The notes beneath the pieces are model-generated. The model did no database searches, was not told the DNA's origin, and was given only the letters and a program-made list of their open reading frames with translations. From NCBI GenBank assembly GCA_005883575.1, contig VBFH01000027.1:1-64000 (forward strand): a stretch of 64,000 nucleotides of DNA, in the 5' to 3' direction. Within the stretch, counting starts at the first letter, position 1. Each line of letters opens with the position of its first letter. The position numbers were made by a program, and so were the translations under genes. This DNA comes from Chloroflexota bacterium. GTDB taxonomy: Bacteria; Chloroflexota; Dormibacteria; Dormibacterales; Dormibacteraceae. Below are positions 4,120 to 27,369 of this stretch, piece after piece.

Positions 4120-5233
4120 CGGTCCGAATCCCGGCGCGGCCCACCGTGCCCTGCCAGTGCGTGATCGAATCGACGAATTCCTCATCGACGTTCACCCCGA
4201 GGCCAGGGCCGGCCGGTACCTTCAATCGGCCATCGCGAAGCACGAAGGGCTCCGTGATGTCGCGGTGGAAGTAGCGGTTTGACGCGGAAGTGTCACCAGG
4301 CAGTGTGAAGTTCGGCATCGCCGCCATGGCCACGTTGCCCGCCCGCCCGATGCCGGTCTCGAGCATCCCGCCCATCCACACCGGCAGGCCGCGTGCTGCG
4401 CACAGGTCGTGGATCCTGCGCGCCTCCAGATAGCCGCCGACGCGCCCTGGCTTGAGGTTGATGATCCGGCACGCGCCCAGCTCGATCGCGTCGCTGGCCG
4501 CCTGCAAGGAATGGATCGACTCGTCGAGGCAGATCGGCGTGCGAACGGTCTTCGCCAGCTCTGCGTGGGCGAGCACCTGCTCCTCGGGCATGGGCTGCTC
4601 GATGAGCAGCAAGGCGAAGGGATCGAGCTTCGCCAGGTGCGTGGCGTCGGCCAGCGTGTAGGCGGTGTTGGCGTCGACCTGCAGCGGGATGTCGCCAAAA
4701 CGCTCGCGCACCGCGCGCACGGGCTCGACATCCCATCCCGGTTTGATCTTGAGCTTGATCCGGCGATAGCCCTGGTCGAGGTACCCGCCCACGGTGCTCA
4801 ACAGCGCGGCGATCGACGGCTGGATCCCGACCGACACCCCACAGTCGACCTCGTCTCGCACGGCGCCGAAGAAGCGCGCGAACGACTGGCCCTGGTCGCG
4901 GAGCTCCGCGTCCAGCACCGCCATCTCGACCGCCGCCTTCGCCATCTGGTGCCCGTGCACCGGGCGCAGGAGCTTGGAGACTTCGCCGGTCGTGAGCGCA
5001 CGGTCCAGCAGCCTCGGGATCAGGTGATGGATCAACACGTGCTGCGCGCCGTTCACGTACTCGGGCGAGTACGTCGGCTCTTCGCCGACGACGCATTCTC
5101 CCCAGCCGTCGCCTGCGTCCGTGACCGCCTTGAGCAGGAGGACGTCGCGCTCGGTCTGCACACCGAACGACGTCTCAAAAGGCGCGACCAGCGGAAGTCT
5201 GATCCGCCGCAGCTCGACCGCCTGCAACTTCAT
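4112..5233 (-). CDS. menC: o-Succinylbenzoate synthase / N-acylamino acid racemase family (enolase superfamily), 373 aa
   Basis: An enolase-superfamily enzyme of the MenC/N-acylamino acid racemase group. It has the capping N-terminal domain and a barrel with the catalytic lysine cluster KLKIK at about 160-164. Metal ligands are Asp187 (VDANTAY), Glu212 (IEQP) and Asp237 (CLDES), and the second catalytic Lys is about 261 (NLKPGRVGG). Family members make o-succinylbenzoate for menaquinone or racemise N-succinyl amino acids, and sequence alone does not separate these well. The ATG at 5233 overlaps the aldo/keto reductase stop by 4 bp, so this is the last gene of the aromatic supraoperon. Other men genes are not in the window. 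Confidence 0.82.
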   Translation of the reverse strand: MKLQAVELRRIRLPLVAPFETSFGVQTERDVLLLKAVTDAGDGWGECVVGEEPTYSPEYVNGAQHVLIHHLIPRLLDRALTTGEVSKLLRPVHGHQMAKAAVEMAVLDAELRDQGQSFARFFGAVRDEVDCGVSVGIQPSIAALLSTVGGYLDQGYRRIKLKIKPGWDVEPVRAVRERFGDIPLQVDANTAYTLADATHLAKLDPFALLLIEQPMPEEQVLAHAELAKTVRTPICLDESIHSLQAASDAIELGACRIINLKPGRVGGYLEARRIHDLCAARGLPVWMGGMLETGIGRAGNVAMAAMPNFTLPGDTSASNRYFHRDITEPFVLRDGRLKVPAGPGLGVNVDEEFVDSITHWQGTVGRAGIRTVS

Positions 5234-6126
5234 CCTGCCAGCGTATCCAGTCGCCTCACGTCGTCGGCGGTCAGATCGATGTCGGCGGCGGCGGCATTTT
5301 CCTCCACCTGCTTGACGTGTGACGCACCGGGTATCGCGACCACGTTCGGCTTCTGGACCAGCCACGCGAGCGCGATCTGCGCCGCCGTCGCCTGGTGCGC
5401 TGATGCGATCTCACGCAGCGCCGCCACGAGCGGTTCGCGGCCCGCACGCGCCTCGGCGCTGAAATCTCCTCGGAAGCGCCGGAAGTTGGTTGGCGACGAA
5501 GACTGATAATTGCCCGAGAGCGCGCCCTGTCCAAGCGGGCTGTAGGCGATGACGATTCGGCCCTCCCGCTGGGCCCACGGCAGGAGCTCGCGCTCCGGCT
5601 CGCGATGGGCCAGGCTGAACCGCACCTGGTTGGAGAGAACCCGTCCGCCGTACGCGCGCTCGCACTTCTGCCAGGCCGCGAGGCTGTGATTGCTCACGCC
5701 CACGTGCCGCACGAGGCCTTCCTCGACCAGTTTGCGGAAACGTGGCATCGTCGCGTTGGGCGGAAAGAGCGGGCTCGGCCAGTGCTGCTGGTAGAGATCG
5801 ATCTGCTCGACGTCCAGCCTGCGCGCGCTCGCCCGCGCCCGGCGCCGGGTCATGAATGGCAGCCCGACCGGAAATAGTTTGGTGGCGAGAAATACACTTT
5901 CCCGCCGGCCCCGAATCGATCCGCCGACGATTCGTTCCGAGCGGCCCAAGCCATAGACCTCGGCGGTGTCGATCAGGTTGATGCCGAGCTCGAGGGCGCG
6001 GCGCACGATCTCGCCCGCGACCCTTGTGCTGTATTCGCGCCCATAGCCCCACTCGGTCGAGCCGAACTGCCAGGTGCCGAGCCCGATCACGGACAAGCGC
6101 GCGCCGCCGACCTCGGCGTACCTCAC
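5230..6126 (-). CDS. Aldo/keto reductase, 298 aa
   Basis: An NADPH-dependent (alpha/beta)8 aldo/keto reductase. The catalytic tetrad is visible as Asp53 and Tyr58 (LIDTAEVYG), Lys83 (ATKLFP) and His115 (QQHWPS). IPGASHVKQVEEN near the C-terminus is the usual NADP-binding end. The substrate is unknown. I chose the GTG at 6126 because it gives a normal N-terminus (VRYAEVGG) and makes a GTGA overlap with the NUDIX gene stop, the junction type used throughout this operon. The frame also stays open upstream inside the neighbour. Confidence 0.88.
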   Translation of the reverse strand: MRYAEVGGARLSVIGLGTWQFGSTEWGYGREYSTRVAGEIVRRALELGINLIDTAEVYGLGRSERIVGGSIRGRRESVFLATKLFPVGLPFMTRRRARASARRLDVEQIDLYQQHWPSPLFPPNATMPRFRKLVEEGLVRHVGVSNHSLAAWQKCERAYGGRVLSNQVRFSLAHREPERELLPWAQREGRIVIAYSPLGQGALSGNYQSSSPTNFRRFRGDFSAEARAGREPLVAALREIASAHQATAAQIALAWLVQKPNVVAIPGASHVKQVEENAAAADIDLTADDVRRLDTLAG

Positions 6127-6722
6127 GATTCGCCCGATGCGAGGCGCTCGTACACGATCTGCGACCACGACTCCATGGCCAGGAAGTACATGCGCATCTC
6201 TTCCAGCGTGAGGAGCTCACCGGCGAGCTTGTCGGTTTCGCGGATGCGGATGTTCGGCGTGTCGCCCTCGACGAGAAAAACGACGCCCAGGTGCACCTTC
6301 GACACCGGGGACGAGTCTTCGTTGAGGAAGCCCAGCAGCGTGGCCTCGAACCGGCCGTCGTACACAACCTCTTCCTGCCACTCTCTCTTCAGGCCGTCGA
6401 GGATCGGATCGCCGGCGTCCAGGTCGCCCGGGTTGATGTGGCCGCCCACTCCCAGGGAGTACTGCTTGCGCAGCCGTCTCTCCGACGACGCACGCAGGCG
6501 ATGCGTCAGCAAGTAGCGTCCGCCGTGCCGGAAAACGACGTAGGGGATGATTTGCTGGAAGCTGGGGTCGTTCTCAACCTCGGCCCGCGGCTTGAAGAAG
6601 TGACGCTCGCGGATCACCGACTGATGGCGGTCGAGATTCTCCGTAACAAAACCGTGCCACGCGCCGTCGGGAAACATGTCCTCGCTGCGGACGCAGAGCA
6701 CTTCCTCGGCGGCGGCTCTCAT
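6123..6722 (-). CDS. NUDIX-domain protein, 199 aa
   Basis: A NUDIX fold protein, probably hydrolysing a nucleoside-diphosphate-linked compound. The box is recognisable around residues 93-118 (GGHINPGD, an insertion, then REWQEEV) with the catalytic REx2EE glutamates at 113-118. An unusual stretch of about nine residues separates the glycine and the RE motif. A domain of about 60 residues rich in charged residues precedes it. The gene overlaps the B3/B4 gene by 4 bp (ATGA) and the aldo/keto reductase by 4 bp. The substrate is unknown, and its place inside an aromatic operon may only reflect co-expression. Confidence 0.8.
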   Translation of the reverse strand: MRAAAEEVLCVRSEDMFPDGAWHGFVTENLDRHQSVIRERHFFKPRAEVENDPSFQQIIPYVVFRHGGRYLLTHRLRASSERRLRKQYSLGVGGHINPGDLDAGDPILDGLKREWQEEVVYDGRFEATLLGFLNEDSSPVSKVHLGVVFLVEGDTPNIRIRETDKLAGELLTLEEMRMYFLAMESWSQIVYERLASGES

Positions 6723-19213: not shown

Positions 19214-19585
19214 ATGAAAAGACCAGTCGTGATGATCGTCGGCGCTGCAGCGGGAGCCCTTCTGGTCGCCGGGGTAGGCGCTTCCGCTCACACCGCGATC
19301 AACCTGGCGACGAGCGTGGGGACGCGTTCGGACTTGTTCGGCGACGAGGCCACAGCTGCACGTGTCCAGTCGCCAGAGCCAGAGGCAAGCCCAGAGGCCA
19401 CGCCGACGGCCGAGCCGGCTGAACGCCCGGAACCCGCGGCGACGGCTGAGCCGGCCGAGAACGAGCCTGCTGAGAACGAGAACGACAATGACAACGACGA
19501 CAACGATGCGGTCGAGCACGCCGGCTCAGGCAACCACGACGACGGTGGCGACAACGGCGGTGGCGGTGGGGGCGGCGACGACTAG
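19214..19585 (+). CDS. Exported low-complexity acidic protein, 123 aa
   Basis: The third gene of the sigma factor unit. It has an N-terminal signal or anchor (MKRPVVMIVGAAAGALLVAG). A stretch rich in Pro, Glu and Ala repeats follows, then an Asp/Asn-rich run and a Gly/Asp-rich end. No globular domain is visible. The composition suggests a surface or cell-envelope protein that could bind cations. The 3' end overlaps the convergent formate dehydrogenase gene by 4 bp. Confidence 0.65.
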   Translation: MKRPVVMIVGAAAGALLVAGVGASAHTAINLATSVGTRSDLFGDEATAARVQSPEPEASPEATPTAEPAERPEPAATAEPAENEPAENENDNDNDDNDAVEHAGSGNHDDGGDNGGGGGGGDD

Positions 19586-20457
19586 CGCTTAGCTTCCCGG
19601 CGCTGCACGAACTCAAAACCGAATCGCCCCTTGACGCACAGGTGACCCGAGGTCACGCTGTGATCAAGGGGCGACGTCACTTTTACGATCGAGTTGTCCT
19701 GGACATGCAGCTCGAGCATGCAGCCCACGCCGCAGTAGGGGCACACGGTTTCCGTCACTTTCTGACGAGACTCATCCCACGTGCCGGCGGCGCGCATTTC
19801 GTGCTCGCTCTTGAACATCAACGCTCCAGTCGGGCACACGCCGATGCAGTTGCCACAGTAGACGCAGGCCGAATCTGGAAGCGGCGTATCGAACTCGGTC
19901 GAGATATGCGCGTCGAAGCCTCGACCCACGACCCCGATGGCAAAGGTGTTCTGCGCGTCAACGCCACAAGCTTCCACGCACTTGTAGCAGAGGATGCAGC
20001 GCGAGTAGTCGCGCACGTAGAGGTCATTGTCGATCTTTACCGGCTGTGCCGCGGTCGCGACCTGATCGCCGAAGCGCGACGGTGTTGCGCCATATCGACC
20101 CATCCATGCATGGACCTGGGGCGAGCAGAGCGACATGTCGACCGACGACGCAAGCAGCTCGAGGACGAGACGGCGGCTGTGCCGGACACGATCGGAGTCG
20201 GTCTGGACCTTCATCCCGGCTTCGACCTTGCGCGAGCACGCGGGGACGAGGACGCGCGATCCCTCGACCTCGACCACGCAGACCCTGCACACGTTGACAG
20301 GCGTCAGGTTGTCCAGCTGGCACAGGGTTGGTGTGTCGATCTGCATCCGGCGGCACGCGTCGAGGATGGTCGAACCTTCGGCGACCTCGAATTCGCGGCC
20401 GTCGATCGTCAGCTTGACTAGGCGTCGTGGCAGGCCGACGAAAACCGCCTCAGACAT
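19582..20457 (-). CDS. Split formate dehydrogenase iron-sulfur subunit (N-terminal domains of FdhA), 291 aa
   Basis: In order it carries a [2Fe-2S] plant-type ferredoxin domain (CQLDNLTPVNVCRVCVVE, with a fourth Cys in VPACSRKV) and two [4Fe-4S] sites (CILCYKCVEACGV and CVYCGNCIGVCPTGA). It ends with the CPYCGVGC plus GHLCVKGR motif, the [4Fe-4S] domain that normally begins the molybdopterin catalytic part of FdhA. The protein stops shortly after it, so the domain that usually continues into the Mo-binding region is severed here. The NADH-dehydrogenase-type His/Cys cluster is not conserved. The ATG at 20457 overlaps the stop of the flavoprotein gene by 8 bp. Electrons should pass from the catalytic subunit through this protein to the NAD-binding subunit. 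Confidence 0.85.
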   Translation of the reverse strand: MSEAVFVGLPRRLVKLTIDGREFEVAEGSTILDACRRMQIDTPTLCQLDNLTPVNVCRVCVVEVEGSRVLVPACSRKVEAGMKVQTDSDRVRHSRRLVLELLASSVDMSLCSPQVHAWMGRYGATPSRFGDQVATAAQPVKIDNDLYVRDYSRCILCYKCVEACGVDAQNTFAIGVVGRGFDAHISTEFDTPLPDSACVYCGNCIGVCPTGALMFKSEHEMRAAGTWDESRQKVTETVCPYCGVGCMLELHVQDNSIVKVTSPLDHSVTSGHLCVKGRFGFEFVQRREAKR

Positions 20458-22228
20458 TGAGCACCTTCAGCTGCGTCAGGCCTGACGCGATCGCATTGGC
20501 CGCCGTCTGGCCGAGACCGCAGATCGACGCATCTCGCATCGCCTGTGCGATGTCGCTCAGCAGCAGAACATCGGAGCGACCGTCGCCGTCGCGTCCACCC
20601 AACATCCGCTCGAGGATCTCCTCCTGGCGCTTGGTGCCGACGCGGCAAGGCACGCATTGGCCGCACGATTCGTCGCGGAAGAAGCGGGCGATGCGAAGCA
20701 GAACCTGCTTCATGTCCGCGGTGTCGTCGAAGACGAGGACCGCACCGGAGCCGAGCGTAGCACCGATGGCGCGCGTCCCCTCGAAGCTCAGCGGGACGTC
20801 GATCTGGTCCGGAGTGAGAAAGGATCCGGCCGCCCCACCAAGAAGGACCGCCTGGACTTTGCGCGCCCCGGCCGTGTCGAGCAGCGCGCGCAGAGGAGTC
20901 CCCATCGCGACTTCGTAGATCCCCGGGCGCGTGACATGTCCCGACGCGCAGAAAAGGCGCGTCCCCGTGGAGTCCTTTGTCCCTGTCGCCGCGAATGACG
21001 CGCCTCCTTCGACAACGATGTCGACCACGTTCAGAAGCGTCTCGACGTTGTTGACCAGCGTCGGCTTGCCGAAGAGGCCCACATCGACCGGAAAAGGCGG
21101 CTTGTTGCGCGGCTCTCCCCTCTTCCCTTCGATCGAGTTGAAGAGAGCCGTTTCCTCGCCGCAGATGTAAGCGCCCGCCCCGCGCCGCACCTCGATCTCC
21201 AACTTGAGGATTCCTTGCGCGCGGGCCTGGGCAATGGCGTTCTCGATCCGCCTTCGCGCGAGCGGATACTCGGTGCGGACGTAGAGGAACCCCTTCTCGC
21301 AGCCGGTCGCAAGCGCGGCGATGGCCATCCCTTCGACGATCGCGAAGGGATCGTTCTCCATCAAGACGCGATCCTTGAACGTGCCCGGCTCCGACTCGTC
21401 GGCGTTGCACACGAGGTAGTGGGGACGGGCCGCCGCCTTCGCCACCGACTCCCACTTGCGGCCGGTTGGAAACGCGGCTCCGCCCCTGCCCAGCAGTCGG
21501 GATTCGGTGATCTCGCGGATGACCGCATCCGATCCGATCACCTCAGCGCGACCAAGGGCGGTGAAGCCGCCATGCAGGCGGTAGCTTTCGAGGCTCTCGG
21601 GGTCGACCGCGCCGATCCGGCGCAGCAGCTTCGGCTGGGCCTGCCGAGGCATCGAGTACGTCGCCGGCTCGGGCCAGGCGCCTCCGCCGAGGATCGACTC
21701 CGCCTGTGCCAGCGTGAACGGCGCGATCTGTCGGTCTTTGTGCTGCATGCCGGCTCGCTCGACAAGCGCCGCGGGCGCGCGGTCGCACAGGCCGAGACAG
21801 GGGCTGCGGTGCCACACCACCCCCGACGGCCCATGTGCGTTTTCGAGTGCCGCGCACAGCTCTTCCGCACCGGAGCATTTGCAAGCGATGTCGTCACAAA
21901 CGTGAAGCGACAGAGCGCCGCGCGGCTGGAGCCCGAAGCGGGCGTAGAAGCTGACCACTCCGTACGCCTCGGCCGGCGGGATGGACAGCCGCCTGCACGC
22001 ATACTCGAGCGCGCCGCGGCTCACCCAGCCGGAGCGGTCCTGGATCGCGTGGAGCACGGGCAGAAGAAGGTGGCGCCGCGACCGCGTCGCGCGCCCGCCA
22101 TACGCGAGGTGGTCGTCAGACGCGCGCCGCTCGCCCCCCTCCCAAAGCGACTCCGGCTCGCCAAGCAGACCGTCGACCGCCGCCATCTCCTCGGCGGTCG
22201 CGGGCCCCCCTGTGGTGCGTATGTCCAA
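20450..22228 (-). CDS. NuoE-NuoF fusion, NAD-binding flavoprotein subunit of formate dehydrogenase, 592 aa
   Basis: The N-terminal 170 residues are a NuoE-like thioredoxin-fold [2Fe-2S] domain with the cysteines in HVCDDIACKCSG and CLGLCDRAP. The rest is NuoF-like: GRGGAAFPTGRKW binds NADH, YLVCNADESEPGTFKDR and GAGAYICGEETAL bind FMN, and ESCGQCVPCRVGT plus a later Cys bind a [4Fe-4S] cluster. It reduces NAD(P)+ with electrons from formate. The TTG start at 22228 follows the catalytic subunit stop directly with no spacer, and its stop overlaps the iron-sulfur subunit gene. Confidence 0.9.
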   Translation of the reverse strand: MDIRTTGGPATAEEMAAVDGLLGEPESLWEGGERRASDDHLAYGGRATRSRRHLLLPVLHAIQDRSGWVSRGALEYACRRLSIPPAEAYGVVSFYARFGLQPRGALSLHVCDDIACKCSGAEELCAALENAHGPSGVVWHRSPCLGLCDRAPAALVERAGMQHKDRQIAPFTLAQAESILGGGAWPEPATYSMPRQAQPKLLRRIGAVDPESLESYRLHGGFTALGRAEVIGSDAVIREITESRLLGRGGAAFPTGRKWESVAKAAARPHYLVCNADESEPGTFKDRVLMENDPFAIVEGMAIAALATGCEKGFLYVRTEYPLARRRIENAIAQARAQGILKLEIEVRRGAGAYICGEETALFNSIEGKRGEPRNKPPFPVDVGLFGKPTLVNNVETLLNVVDIVVEGGASFAATGTKDSTGTRLFCASGHVTRPGIYEVAMGTPLRALLDTAGARKVQAVLLGGAAGSFLTPDQIDVPLSFEGTRAIGATLGSGAVLVFDDTADMKQVLLRIARFFRDESCGQCVPCRVGTKRQEEILERMLGGRDGDGRSDVLLLSDIAQAMRDASICGLGQTAANAIASGLTQLKVLNV

Positions 22229-24139
22229 CTAAGAGGCGGGGACCTGAGCGGGGATCTTGTCAATCCGGATCGCGCTTGCCTTGAACTCGGCCGTGCCGGA
22301 CTTTGGGTCCGTGGCGTCAATGGTCAGGATGTTTGTCGAGACCTGGTCGGGAAAGTGAAGCGTCATGAACGCGAGACCAGGTCGCAGGGTGGGCTCGATT
22401 CGCACGTTCACATCCACGGAGCCGCGGCGCGAGCTGACGCGGACGCACTCGCCGTCCTCCACACCGATGCGCTGACCATCCTCGGGGGAGATGAGCAGCG
22501 CCTCGCCCTTGCGGAGCGGCGACGTGTACTCGTTGGTCTGAACACCCGTGTTGAAGGAGTCGAGCCTGCGACCGGTGGTCAGTCGGATCGGAAACTCTTC
22601 GCTCAGGCGATCGACAGGCGGATCGTGCTCCACGGCGTGGAACGGAGCGCGGGGGCCCTCGACGGGATGCTTCCAGAGCCGAGCGTGCAGGAACTGCGTG
22701 CCCCGATGCGATTCGTCCGGACAGGGCCACTGGATCCCACCGAGCTCCTCGAGCCGGCGATACGCCATACCCGCATGCATCGGGGACAGGCTGCGGCACT
22801 CATCCCAGACTTGCTCGGCGGTCGGATGGCCCCAGTCTGAGCCGAGACGGCGAGCGAGTTCGCAGATGATGTCGATGTCGTCCCTCGCGCCCGCGGGCGG
22901 CTCGAGCGCGCGACGGACGCGCTGGACGCGCCGCTCGCTGTTGGTCACCGTGCCTTCCGACTCCGCCCAACCGGCAGCCGCCGGCAGCACGACGTGCGCC
23001 ATCTGCGCGGTGTGGGTGAGGAAGATGTCCTGCACCACCAGGTGATCGAGGCCGCTCAAAAGACGGACAGCGCGACCCTGGTCCGCCTCGCTGCGCGCCG
23101 GGTTCTCGCCGACGATGTAGAGCGAGCTGAGGTCGCCGCGATCCATCGCCTCGAACATCTCGCTCAGATGCCACCCCTTCCTGCCTGGAAAGGTCGCGCC
23201 ACCCCAGGCGCGCGCGAACTTGTCGTGGATCTCCGGGTCTTCGAGGTCTTGGAAACCGGGCAGGCGCGCCGGAATCGCGCCCATGTCGCCGCCGCCCTGG
23301 ACGTTGTTCTGCCCGCGCAGCGGATTGAGCCCGCTCCCATACCTGCCGACTTTGCCGGTGAGCAGACCCAGGTTGATCAGCGCGAGCACGTTGTCGGTTG
23401 CGTTGTGGTGCTCGGTGATGCCTAGCGTCCAGCAGATCATTCCCTTCTCGGCCCGCGCATACGCGAGCGCGACCTCTTTGATCGCCGCGGCCGGCACGCC
23501 GGTCTCCGCCTCGGCACGTTCGAGCGTGTACGCCTCGACGCAGCGCGCGAACTCCTCGTAACCGGTGGTCGCCCGCGAGATGAACTCCGTGTGCGCAAGC
23601 CCGGCGTGGATGATCTCGCGCGCCATCGCGTTGGCGAGCGCGATGTCGCTCCCCACATCGATGCCGAGCCATATGTCGGCCCACTCGGCCGAGCTTGTGC
23701 GCCGGGGATCGACCGCGATGAGCTTCGCTCCGCCGCGCACCCCGCGCAGGAGGTGGTGGAAGAAGATCGGGTGAGTCTCCCGCGCGTTGGAGCCCCACAA
23801 GATGATCAGGTCCGTTTCCTCAGCCTCCTGGTAGGAAGACGTCCCTCCCCCGGCTCCGAACACTGTCGCCAGACCGGCGACGCTCGGCGCGTGTCAAGTC
23901 CGGTTGCAGCTGTCGATGTTGTTGCTGTGCATGACCGCACGAGTGAACTTCTGCGCCATGAAGTTCATCTCGTTGGTCGTCTTCGAGCAGCTGAACATGC
24001 CGAATGCATGCGGTCCTTGCCGGCGGGCCGCCTCGAATCCCGCGGCGGCCCTCGTCAGGGCCTCTTCCCAGGACGCGGGGCGCAGGTCTCCGCCCTCCCT
24101 GACCAGCGGCTCGGACAGACGGCGAAGCCCGTCGTGCAT
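22229..24139 (-). CDS. fdhA: Selenocysteine-containing formate dehydrogenase catalytic subunit (molybdopterin oxidoreductase), 636 aa with Sec82
   Basis: The frame runs from the ATG at 24139 through an in-frame TGA at 23894-23896 to a TAG at 22229. The TGA lies in DSCNRT-Sec-HAPSVAGL, the position of the active-site selenocysteine followed by His in formate dehydrogenases, so it should be read as Sec at codon 82. A hairpin with a GGUCU loop follows. Further motifs are WGSNARETHP, NPLRGQNNVQGGGDMG, and a C-terminal dinucleotide-binding domain with FPIRLTTGRRL and SSRRGSVDV. The usual N-terminal [4Fe-4S] domain is missing and is encoded by the separate gene at 19582-20457. The enzyme oxidises formate to CO2 or the reverse, and requires a selenocysteine system elsewhere in the genome. 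Confidence 0.9.
23865..23881 (-). promoter_or_regulatory. Bacterial SECIS hairpin after the Sec codon
   Basis: In the mRNA sense, GTCGCC, the loop GGTCT, and GGCGAC form a perfect 6 bp stem starting 12 bases after the UGA. The GGUCU apical loop is known to be required for SelB binding in Escherichia coli fdhF, and the 18-base distance from UGA to loop also fits. Flanking CCGA/TCGG can extend the stem. Confidence 0.85.
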
Positions 24140-24161
24140 GGCACCACTATATGTATCGCGC

Positions 24162-25352
24162 CTACGACTTGTGGGCGGCGACGAACTCCTTGATCCGCCC
24201 CAGGCCGAGCTTCAGCTCGTCCTCCGACTGCGTGTAGGCGAGGCGGATGAATCCCTTGCCCGCGAGGCCGAACGCCGTCCCGGGCAGAACCGCGACGCCG
24301 GCTTCGTTGAGCAAGCGGCTTGCCAGCTCGTGCTCGTCGAATCCCGTGCCCTCGATGTTCGGGAACACGTAGAAGGAACCCTGCGGGCGCGCGCAGCGGA
24401 TGCCTGGAATCTCGTTCATGCCGTCGACCACCAGGTCGCGCCGGCGCTCGAAGACCTTGACCATCCGGCGCACCGCGTGCTCCGATTCCGGAGACCCCAG
24501 CGCCTCGATGGCCGCGATCTGCGTGAACGCCGCGGCGCACGACGACGAGTTGATCATCAACGTGTCGAGCTTGGCGGCCAGCGCGCGCGGAGCGACCGCG
24601 TAACCAAGGCGCCACCCAGTCATCGCGTAGGACTTCGACAGCCCATCCATCAAGACCGTGCGCTCGCGCATGCCGGGCCTGGACAACGGCGAGACGTGGT
24701 GAAACCCGTACACGAGCTGGCTGTAGATCTCGTCCGACACGACCAGGAGGTCGTGCTTGTGCGCGAGTTCGCATACGAATTCGATGTCCTCGGCGGTGAG
24801 CACGCCGCCGGTCGGGTTTTGCGGAGTGTTGATGATGAGCATCCGCGTCTTCGGAGTGACCAAGGAGGCCAGCTCGTCGAGGTCCATACGGAATCCGGAT
24901 TCCTCGCGCAGAGTGACCATCTTCGGCACCGCGCCGATGAAGCTCACCTGCGACGCATAGGCGGGATAGCCGGGGTCGGGCAGGATCACCTCATCGCCAG
25001 GCTCGACGCAGGCGAGCAGCGTGAACAGCAAGACGTTCTTCGAACCGGGAACGAGCACGACGTCGGCCGGGTCGACCTCGGTGGAAAGCATCCGGCTCAC
25101 GAAACTTGCGACTGCTTCACGCGCTTCGAAGATCCCGCTCGCCGGTGTGTAGTGCGTGTAGCCATTCTGCATCGCACCGATCGCCGCTTCGACGATGTTG
25201 TCCGGCGTCGCGAAGTCGGGCTCGCCGATCTCGAGGTGGACGATGCGCTTGCCCTCGGCCTCGAGGTTGCGCGCGCGGGCGAGCACCTCGAACGCCCCTT
25301 CCGTGCCGAGACGTGACATGCGTTCGGCAAAACGAACCGCGGTGCTGCTCAT
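24162..25352 (-). CDS. Class I/II pyridoxal-phosphate aminotransferase (aspartate aminotransferase-like), 396 aa
   Basis: A fold-type I aminotransferase of the AspB/LL-DAP class. N-terminal residues EIGEPDFATPDNI, the NPTGG motif, the PLP-binding Asp/Tyr in VVSDEIYSQLVY and the Schiff-base lysine in DGLSKSYAMTGWRLG are visible, as is the substrate Arg near the end (FIRLAYT). It probably moves amino groups between glutamate and an oxo acid. The exact substrate (oxaloacetate, phenylpyruvate, prephenate) is open. The ATG at 25352 is preferred over the longer frame, which would overlap the SDR gene. It lies 22 bp upstream of the formate dehydrogenase start. Confidence 0.9.
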   Translation of the reverse strand: MSSTAVRFAERMSRLGTEGAFEVLARARNLEAEGKRIVHLEIGEPDFATPDNIVEAAIGAMQNGYTHYTPASGIFEAREAVASFVSRMLSTEVDPADVVLVPGSKNVLLFTLLACVEPGDEVILPDPGYPAYASQVSFIGAVPKMVTLREESGFRMDLDELASLVTPKTRMLIINTPQNPTGGVLTAEDIEFVCELAHKHDLLVVSDEIYSQLVYGFHHVSPLSRPGMRERTVLMDGLSKSYAMTGWRLGYAVAPRALAAKLDTLMINSSSCAAAFTQIAAIEALGSPESEHAVRRMVKVFERRRDLVVDGMNEIPGIRCARPQGSFYVFPNIEGTGFDEHELASRLLNEAGVAVLPGTAFGLAGKGFIRLAYTQSEDELKLGLGRIKEFVAAHKS

Positions 25353-25371
25353 CTCAACCGAATCGTAGTTG

Positions 25372-26136
25372 CTAGTGAACGCCGATGAGGGAGCCGCCGT
25401 CGACGCCAAGTGTCTGGCCCGTTATATACGCGGCCTGGCTCGAGCAAAGGAACGCGCAGGCCGCCGCAAACTCGATAGGTTCGCCCAGTCGCTTCATCGG
25501 CGCAGCCTCGGCCGCCTGCTTGATCTGCTCTTCTGGATCGACGCCTCGCGACCGGGCGATTTCCCGCAACCGGTCGGTGAGGATCGCGTCAGGGGCAAGG
25601 CAGTTGACCGTGATGCTGTCCGGCGCCAGCTCGCGCGCGAGGGTCTTGGCCAGGCCGGTCACGCCGGCACGAAGAGCGTTGGAGATGACGATGTTCGGAA
25701 TCGGCTGGCGGACTGAGATCGACGTGATAAAGACGATGCGCCCATGGTCCGACTGCTTCAGCTGTGGCAGGGCCGCCTTCACCAGACGGACCGCACTCAT
25801 TAGCGTCAACTGGAACCCCGCCTCCCATGCGGCGATCGTGGTGCTCTGAAAAGTCCCGGGCGGCGGGCCTCCGGCGTTGGCGACCAGGATGTCGAGCCCA
25901 TCAAGAGTCCTGGCCGCGGTCTCGACCAGCTTCTCCGGGTCGCCTTCCCTGGACATGTCGGCGGCGAAGGAACCCGCAGCTCGGATTTCATGAGCGGTCA
26001 TTTGGATCGCTTTCGGATCGCGCGAGGAGATGAAGACCCGTGCGCCTTCGTCGGCCAACGTTTCGGCGCACGCCCGGCCGAGACCCTTGCTCGCGGCTGT
26101 CACTAGCGCGCGGCGCCCGCTCAGGCCGAGATCCAT
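25372..26136 (-). CDS. SDR family protein lacking the catalytic YxxxK, 254 aa
   Basis: A Rossmann-fold short-chain dehydrogenase/reductase resembling FabG, with TAASKGLGRA for cofactor binding, VANAGGPPPG and the active-site Ser region FITSISV. Where a catalytic Tyr and Lys four residues apart should stand, the sequence reads NIVISNALRAGVTGLAK, so both are absent. The same substitution occurs in a recognised SDR subgroup of unknown function. The C-terminal GQTLGVDGG is normal. The start ATG at 26136 is clear. It probably shares an operon with the aminotransferase. Confidence 0.85.
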   Translation of the reverse strand: MDLGLSGRRALVTAASKGLGRACAETLADEGARVFISSRDPKAIQMTAHEIRAAGSFAADMSREGDPEKLVETAARTLDGLDILVANAGGPPPGTFQSTTIAAWEAGFQLTLMSAVRLVKAALPQLKQSDHGRIVFITSISVRQPIPNIVISNALRAGVTGLAKTLARELAPDSITVNCLAPDAILTDRLREIARSRGVDPEEQIKQAAEAAPMKRLGEPIEFAAACAFLCSSQAAYITGQTLGVDGGSLIGVH

Positions 26137-26271
26137 CTACGCCATTCTCGCGCTGCTTTGGGGCCCGGGTTTGCCCGGCGGCGACGTCAACCGAAAACTC
26201 CTATTGCCATCCGCTCGAAACGAGAGTATTCAGGTCCTCATCCCAGAGTCCGGCTGTATCGAGGTGGGGAC
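26137..26271 (+). other. 135 bp upstream of the repeat protein gene
   Basis: This spacer between two divergently read genes holds two small perfect hairpins: CCGGG-TTTG-CCCGG at 26165-26178 and CTCG-AAA-CGAG at 26214-26224. GAGGTGGGG at 26261-26269 is a probable ribosome site for the ATG at 26272. I see no convincing -35/-10 pair. Confidence 0.4.
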
Positions 26272-27369
26272 ATGCATCAATTGCGACTACGGGCAGTCGG
26301 CGTTGCGGCAGGGCTCGCTTTGTCTGCTGGAGCGTTGTTCTTTGGCCAGGCACAAGCAGTTGCCTCTAGCTGGTCCGTTGTTTCCAGCCCCAACAGCGGG
26401 ACGAGCAACAATTACCTCTCCGGAATCGCCTGCGTCTCGTCCAGCTTCTGCATCGCGGTGGGTGCGTACGACTACGGGGCCCTGATCGAGTCCTGGAACG
26501 GCACCAGTTGGTCGATCGTGCCAGCGCCCGACAGCGGCATCAGCGGCCTCAGTAGCGTCGCCTGTCCCTCGTCCAGCTTCTGCACCGCCGTGGGTGGGAT
26601 TGACAACAGCGGCATCGGCCAGACCCTGATCGAGTCCTAGGATGGCACCGGCTGGTCTATCGCGCCCAGCCCCAACACGCTAGGCAACGATTACCTCGAT
26701 AGCGTTTCTTGCGCCTCGTCCAGCTTCTGCACCGCCGTGGGTTCTGTAAACAATGGCGCCCAGACCCTGATCGAGACGTGGAACGGCACCAGCTGGTCGA
26801 TCGTTCCCAGCCCCAATCGCGGAACGAGCCCCGACTTTCTCCATGGTGTGGCCTGTGTCTCGTCCAGCTCCTGTACCGCCGTAGGTGGGTACCACAACGG
26901 CGTTGTCTCCCAAACCCTGATTGAGTCCTGGAACGGCACCAGCTGGTCGATCGTGGCCAGCCCCAACAGGGGACTGGGCGACAACAACCTCTTTGGCGCG
27001 TCCTGCCTCTTGCCCAAGACCTGCACAGCTGTGGGCATTGGAACGGGGCAGACCTTGATCGAGTCCCTGAACGGCAGCCGATGGTCGATCGCGCCCAGCC
27101 CCAGCAGCGGGACGAGCTACAACTCGCTCTATGGCGTGGCTTGCCCCTCGTTCAAGTCTTGCACCGCCGTGGGCGGTGTTGGGAATGGAACGCAGTTCCT
27201 GATCGAGTCTGGAAAACACAACAGATGGTCGATCGAGTCCACCCCAAACACTGGCAACTACAACGCGCTCACCAGCGTAGCCTGCGTCTCATCCGGCTCC
27301 TGCACCGCCGTGGGCTATTACGTCAACAGCAGCAGCGGCGTCTTCCAGACCCTGATCGTGTCTGAGTGA
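26272..27369 (+). pseudogene. Exported seven-repeat protein interrupted by an in-frame amber codon
   Basis: The ATG at 26272 starts a signal peptide (hydrophobic core GVAAGLALSAGALFF, cleavage near AQA-VASS). Seven repeats of about 45-50 residues follow, each with the pattern SWSIVPSPN, GVACVSSSSCTAVG and QTLIESWNGT. A TAG at 26638-26640 (codon 123) stands exactly where the repeat has Trp (IES-stop-DGT versus IESWNGT), and the frame is then open to a TGA at 27367-27369. This looks like one TGG to TAG mutation in an otherwise intact gene of 365 codons. Each repeat has a conserved pair of cysteines. The function is unknown; similar repeats are common in secreted actinobacterial and chloroflexal proteins of unknown role. 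Confidence 0.75.

Follow-up and report, generated by a model that had tools for sequence, protein, structure and literature searches.

How could a formate dehydrogenase work if its catalytic chain lacks the [4Fe-4S] domain that normally precedes the molybdopterin region? This question is raised by three adjacent genes, here named CAT, NUO and FES, in a stretch of 64,000 nucleotides from a Chloroflexota bacterium (contig VBFH01000027.1; "the window" denotes this whole stretch). The original prediction had placed the missing domain at the end of the iron-sulfur protein FES and had left its return to the enzyme as a subunit to be examined. Based on the protein sequence analysis and the recurrence of the locus we consider it probable, at roughly 85%, that CAT-NUO-FES encodes a soluble, NAD-dependent Fds/Fdh1-type formate dehydrogenase with a large subunit that is cut past its first [4Fe-4S] cluster (A1) and reassembled in trans. 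The parts of the locus are as follows.

22229 to 24139, minus strand: CAT, catalytic molybdopterin subunit of formate dehydrogenase, 636 aa, predicted selenocysteine (Sec) at residue 82
20450 to 22228, minus strand: NUO, NuoE-NuoF fusion (diaphorase for flavin mononucleotide (FMN) and NAD), 592 aa, TTG start
19582 to 20457, minus strand: FES, iron-sulfur subunit, 291 aa, with [2Fe-2S], two [4Fe-4S] and, at the C-terminus, the severed A1-type [4Fe-4S]
19603 to 19761, minus strand: severed Molybdop_Fe4S4 domain, FES residues 233-285 (PF04879, E 1.5e-19), with C239, C242, C246, C274 and K276
23894 to 23896, minus strand: in-frame UGA, CAT codon 82, read as selenocysteine (predicted), motif CNRT-U-HAPSV
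23865 to 23881, minus strand: hairpin GTCGCC-GGTCT-GGCGAC of the selenocysteine insertion sequence (SECIS) type, apical loop 18 nt past the UGA

Domain content of the three chains

The coordinates agree with the proposed order of catalytic, NAD and iron-sulfur subunit in the direction of transcription (CAT, NUO, FES, all on the minus strand), and the distance of about 1.8 kb between the two parts, from the CAT stop to the FES start, was also found as described. The TTG start of NUO abuts the CAT stop, and the FES start overlaps the NUO end by 8 nt. In a Pfam scan CAT contained PF00384 (Molybdopterin) and PF01568 (Molydop_binding), without an Fe4S4 domain, and NUO contained PF01257, PF01512, SLBB and NADH_4Fe-4S. 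The catalytic molybdopterin domains with the Sec/Cys-His pair and the conserved Arg are present in CAT, and a HoxU-like iron-sulfur module and a NuoEF-type diaphorase are encoded in the same operon. FES ends in a region reading CPYCGVGC...GHLCVKGR, and the Molybdop_Fe4S4 match at residues 233-285 bears out that the severed domain closes a separate protein of 291 aa.

The two chains complement each other. FES covers positions 1-52 and CAT positions 52-672 of TIGR01591 (formate dehydrogenase alpha), so that no segment appears to be missing between them and the catalytic subunit begins just past the A1 domain, as originally predicted. Against FdsA (6tg9 chain A), FES covers residues 24-305 and CAT residues 308-931. 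As judged from these alignments, the cut falls in the short linker between the A1 part and the catalytic part, apparently with nothing lost. Among the rows compared, the A1 motif lies upstream in the catalytic frame in none of 75 split rows versus 37 of 39 other rows.

A complete FdhA next door was considered as a candidate and rejected: none was found, and the other full match in the genome is of the FDH-N type and lies on a different contig (C38). This second formate dehydrogenase (L014, G000:C38:44786-46429, minus strand; TIGR01553) also has an in-frame TGA.

CAT also gave 415 bits with the NasC model, as would be expected if it were a different type of molybdenum enzyme, e.g. an assimilatory nitrate reductase. 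The TIGR01591 score is higher (646 bits), however, 27 aligned CAT sequences show no variation in the Sec/Cys-His pair or in the RGQNNVQGG-DMG stretch, and the best sequence and structure matches of CAT are formate dehydrogenases, which makes such an assignment very improbable. The structure model of CAT (mean predicted local distance difference test, pLDDT, 79.5) has E. coli FdhF as its top match (template modelling (TM) score 0.88), with Fdh1 and FdsA close.

In 53 aligned FES sequences the A1 cysteines C239, C242, C246 and C274 as well as K276 are invariant, and so are the cysteines of the two central [4Fe-4S] clusters and of the [2Fe-2S] cluster, all clusters being assigned by motif. K276 corresponds by motif position to Lys44 of E. 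coli FDH-H, which is described in the consulted part of PMC12176258 as strictly conserved and as required for cluster occupancy and activity. Since the cluster residues are conserved and the coverage of FES and CAT is complementary, FES probably supplies both A1 and the lysine to CAT in trans.

Furthermore, the split FES proteins keep the motifs for clusters A1, A2, A3 and A5. According to the sections of PMC7171172 available to us, these four clusters and B6 form the path from molybdenum to FMN in the formate dehydrogenase of R. capsulatus, whereas A4, a cluster with a His ligand, sits at the dimer interface and outside this path. The locus carries motifs for every cluster on that path. None of 96 split FES has the A4 motif, which is also missing from 14/29 other rows, including those of family f8 (see below); the loss of A4 therefore probably precedes the split. 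FES falls below the curated NCBIfam cut-offs for HoxU (147 versus 333 bits) and for [FeFe] hydrogenase A6 (175 versus 765 bits).

Predicted selenocysteine in the catalytic subunit

The original prediction was silent on the selenocysteine codon, on its coupling to the split and on the spread across phyla. Mechanically, CAT consists of two open reading frames (ORFs), 24139-23894 and 23863-22229, divided by the TGA at codon 82. Reading through this codon (23896-23894) gives NNIDSCNRT-U-HAPSVAGL, which we take to be the active-site motif of formate dehydrogenases; its identity agrees with the CAT alignment (n=27) and with E. coli fdhF. In all 75 split CATs with a readable site the codon is TGA.

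A SECIS assignment was made from the pair count across these 75 sequences. The stem of six pairs shows 449 of 450 standard pairs, compared with 69-150 of 450 when the partner strand was shifted by one or two bases. Three sequences have G-C in place of C-G at one stem pair whose bases both occupy third codon positions. The loop GGTCT occurs in 74 of the 75, although GGT accounts for 10.8% of the remaining Gly codons in the same genes; in fused relatives the loop was present in 8/8 sequences with Sec versus 1/8 with Cys. Loop and spacing of the hairpin match E. coli fdhF, and a search of the window against Rfam gave no match at gathering scores.

The genome contains candidates for SelA, SelB (directly behind SelA), SelD and tRNA-Sec (71.4 bits). 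The tRNA-Sec search returned a second match barely above the cut-off and weaker ones, which were taken for other tRNAs. The gene for SelD (L135, G000:C86:204596-205507, minus strand) itself has an in-frame TGA, and SelD of this genome is probably a selenoprotein. FdhD, the sulfurtransferase of formate dehydrogenases, was found in the genome and, among the 80 loci sampled below, within the fetched DNA of 22.

The in-frame TGA could also mean that CAT is a pseudogene or ends at codon 82, leaving a dead enzyme or an 81 aa piece as the product. The TGA stands at the catalytic position in 75/75 relatives, though, the SECIS pairing is nearly perfect, the machinery for Sec is encoded in the genome, and the identity of CAT to its relatives is 65-91% along the chain, through the TGA and past it. 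With the TGA and the same gene order (79/79 complete loci, see below) constant, a pseudogene or a frameshift was rejected; we regard this explanation as hardly credible. Codon 82 of CAT is predicted to be read as selenocysteine.

Recurrence, coupling and origin of the arrangement

Related loci were sampled by similarity to FES. From 517 related places on named genome contigs the best 80 were taken; together with 16 further loci of the window's own phylum and the window itself they gave 97 readable FES; a few loci are counted twice, once per collection (e.g. L024 = L147, L070 = L143). Of 98 split loci including the window, 79 hold all three modules with good matches and 19 are incomplete. All 79 complete loci show the order CAT-NUO-FES on a single strand, with the severed domain in the third gene throughout, as the original prediction had proposed to check, and this recurrence excludes a chance arrangement. 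A frameshift restoring one polypeptide was not found either: 96 of 97 FES end 9-31 aa past C-K-G-R, and one is truncated by the end of its locus.

The estimated gap is below 60 nt between CAT and NUO in 68/79 loci and between NUO and FES in 59/79. Longer CAT-NUO gaps of 0.8-2.7 kb occur in L067, L070, L143, L153 and L155. The ORFs within the gaps of long-gap loci matched no Pfam family where tested, except in L156, where a gene for a GmrSD-type restriction protein (GmrSD_N; 4806-6302, plus strand) lies between CAT and NUO.

A TIGR01591 search of 251 genomes from the same phylum as the window, with mostly four candidates scored per genome, gave at least 27 matches that start at positions 43-53; 27/27 of these have an in-frame TGA, one of them with an additional TAA. 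Matches starting at 54-64 are mostly without TGA among the matches listed, and in the three such regions that were opened (L139, L140, L142) the A1 domain lies in the same frame. Eleven genomes were furthermore reached via loci labelled Acidobacteriota, Bacillota, Spirochaetota, Planctomycetota, Actinomycetota, Vulcanimicrobiota, Armatimonadota and Chloroflexota. Each of the eleven has one CAT-type match (start 31-53) with one TGA and a separate match to positions 1-50 or slightly more. A named isolate with the split arrangement on a plasmid was considered and rejected: the plasmid matches were all below 60% identity, and 3 of 4 opened plasmid regions carry A1 upstream in the catalytic frame, and the fourth (L180) gave no clear reading. 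Among isolates, Occallatibacter riparius (Acidobacteriota) has three known selenoprotein genes according to a table in PMC12013277 and is a possible candidate for a cultured carrier.

These loci bear on the proposal that FES-NUO is a general diaphorase plugging its A1 domain into several molybdenum catalytic subunits, CAT being one partner. In its favour, FES stands alone as a chain and is similar to HoxU and to the N-terminus of [FeFe] hydrogenase A6, and several of the eleven genomes hold further full-length relatives of TIGR01591. Other molybdopterin proteins keep their own [4Fe-4S] domain wherever this was checked, however (the 37 of 39 rows above), so that the docking site would be filled, and FES and CAT are operon neighbours in every complete locus. 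We therefore consider a general diaphorase improbable.

No split CAT with Cys was seen (75/75, at least 27/27 and 11/11 with TGA, the sets overlapping). That Sec requires the split was nevertheless rejected, since 19 of 39 non-split rows also have the TGA. As a result of the split and the rotated gene order the UGA stands near the start of the operon's first gene, ahead of all other parts: it is codon 82 in the CAT of the window, while in fused chains with a long N-terminus the Sec codon lies about 340-430 codons from the nearest upstream stop. It is conceivable, if rather unlikely, that the split is a selenium-gating device. As the genes abut or overlap, a ribosome stop at the UGA would then lower NUO and FES too, and the whole enzyme would be made only with selenium. 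Such gating would leave no loose cluster-loaded fragment, unlike a fused chain stopping at about codon 340-430, and would account for the presence of Sec in every split CAT seen.

In a tree of 114 catalytic modules, which came from a quick search without bootstrap and leaves 25 of 108 inner branches open, all 75 split CATs fall together (Shimodaira-Hasegawa-like approximate likelihood ratio test, SH-aLRT, 100), G204 (L141) being the deepest; the non-split rows are mostly top scorers of the 251-genome search and hence a biased sample. The split FES likewise form one group (support 99) in a tree of 58 iron-sulfur modules, for which 27 of the 97 were picked to span the range. In the NUO tree the link between L141 and the remaining split members is not firm; two label changes were counted there and one is possible. 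The nearest non-split relatives in the FES and NUO trees include the family f8 operons of Chloroflexota.

Taken as a string NUO-FES-A1-CAT, the modules are cut in three ways: with FES-A1-CAT fused, as FES and A1-CAT, or as FES-A1 and CAT. Relative to the usual NUO-(FES-A1-CAT), as in the fused operon L183, CAT-NUO-FES is cyclically rotated, with the cut inside the large subunit. The rotated order would result from a tandem duplication if the outer parts were then lost; no intermediate was found among the loci examined, and this route and the direction of change are ones that we infer.

The same split enzyme might also be a neutral relic, with one gene fission fixed by drift and inherited with the operon without any regulatory or biochemical benefit. 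One fission event predicts single clades, as obtained for CAT and for the sampled FES, and gene borders evidently move in this family, given that related strings are cut elsewhere (L139 and L140: NUO, FES, then A1-CAT). On the other hand, 79 complete loci over several phyla share one cut site, one gene order and Sec, and neither re-fusion nor replacement by Cys was seen among the sampled split loci. In the parts of PMC1794560 consulted, the change from Sec to Cys is described as frequent in FdhA. We rate a neutral origin as a serious contender at slightly less than even odds.

Several features surround the locus. TATAGT stands at 24146-24151 (minus strand), a few bases upstream of the CAT start codon, and TATA elements lie similarly just before CAT in L017, L019, L024, L025, L027 and L029; this placement suggests a leaderless CAT transcript or one with a very short leader. 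An aminotransferase-like gene (24162-25409, minus strand) lies directly upstream of CAT, a similar coding sequence is close upstream of CAT in L019, L020, L021, L023, L026 and L030, and it may share the CAT transcript. At the other end, a small low-complexity ORF (19214-19585, plus strand) is convergent and overlaps the FES end by four bases. The ORFs at 26158-27369 (plus strand) contain a repeated SWNGTSWSIVPSPN-type motif and may together encode a secreted repeat protein, broken up by a change of frame.

Proposed mechanism and comparison with known systems

In the enzyme reassembled from CAT, NUO and FES, CAT would bind bis-molybdopterin guanine dinucleotide, and Sec82-His83 would oxidise formate or reduce CO2. 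The C-terminal [4Fe-4S] domain of FES would dock at the position left free by the absent N-terminus of CAT and give CAT its cluster A1 and the conserved lysine. Electrons would pass from molybdenum via A1, A2, A3 and A5, all four in FES, to the NuoF-type cluster, the FMN of NUO and finally NAD+. This path and the formate:NAD+ activity are presumed from sequence.

Some observations weigh against this reading of the locus. The score of CAT with TIGR01591 (646.1 bits) lies under the curated equivalog cut-off of 666.25. The structure model of FES is weak, with a mean pLDDT of 64 and residues 264-291 below 50; the low confidence at its C-terminus fits a domain that may need a partner, yet counts as no evidence for that, and even so the best structure matches are the expected ones, with Fdh1 high-ranking. 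The CAT of G027 has an extra TAA, and L082, outside the 53-row FES alignment, has Ser at the fourth Cys of the A1 cluster. Sampling by FES similarity could miss more distant Cys or fused relatives, and the members are almost all metagenome bins, so that misbinning may inflate the range of phyla.

The enzyme type is known; new are the presumed supply of the A1 domain in trans, the rotated operon and the constant predicted selenocysteine. No description of a split formate dehydrogenase or of this clade was recognised in the open-licence literature searched. A 2025 paper, in the part consulted, calls the cluster next to the molybdenum cofactor ubiquitous across molybdenum-dependent formate dehydrogenases and places it in the catalytic subunit (PMC12176258). 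Here both the cluster and the lysine appear to come from another chain, in a conserved group of selenoprotein enzymes reported from bins of several soil phyla. Such an enzyme would be a natural two-piece system in which the first electron relay of a catalyst for CO2/formate could be loaded, exchanged or tuned. Since standard gene callers interrupt CAT at the UGA, the catalytic gene is readily overlooked or recorded as two pieces, and the extent of formate metabolism in these soil lineages may be underestimated.

With FdsABG(D) of Rhodobacter capsulatus (6tg9) the split enzyme shares the modules and the on-path clusters A1, A2, A3, A5 and the NuoF-type cluster. FdsA, however, is a single chain with an active-site Cys, whereas the split enzyme has two chains and Sec, a fused NuoE-NuoF, no His-ligated A4 motif and a rotated gene order; the A1 domain and the iron-sulfur module are not in one chain with the catalytic domains here, being carried by FES. 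Fdh1 of Methylorubrum extorquens (7vw6, 7e5z) is a high-ranking match to both FES and CAT, and its partner subunit is a NuoEF fusion. Its alpha subunit is fused (989 aa), while that of the split enzyme is divided. In the plasmid operon L183 one Nqo1-type gene of NuoEF-fusion size precedes the fused gene. E. coli FdhF (FDH-H) is a selenocysteine enzyme like CAT, its best structural match, and has the same SECIS loop and spacing; unlike the split enzyme it retains the [4Fe-4S] domain in the catalytic chain and lacks a diaphorase.

Also related are the operons of family f8 (L139, L140), whose NUO and FES group with the split clade (support 98 and 97) and whose FES also lacks the A4 motif. There FES ends before A1, which stays on the catalytic chain, so that A1 is flanked by the cut on its opposite side. 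L139 (G055:C31, 2501-10067) encodes NUO, FES and then two tandem formate dehydrogenase alpha-like genes, the first with TGA and the second without.

A precedent for a molybdopterin chain spread over two subunits is an enzyme of Methanothermobacter wolfeii, presumably formylmethanofuran dehydrogenase. A figure legend of PMC7171172 gives its C-terminal part as an additional subunit. In formylmethanofuran dehydrogenase it is thus the C-terminal cap that is separate, whereas in the split enzyme it is the N-terminal cluster domain.

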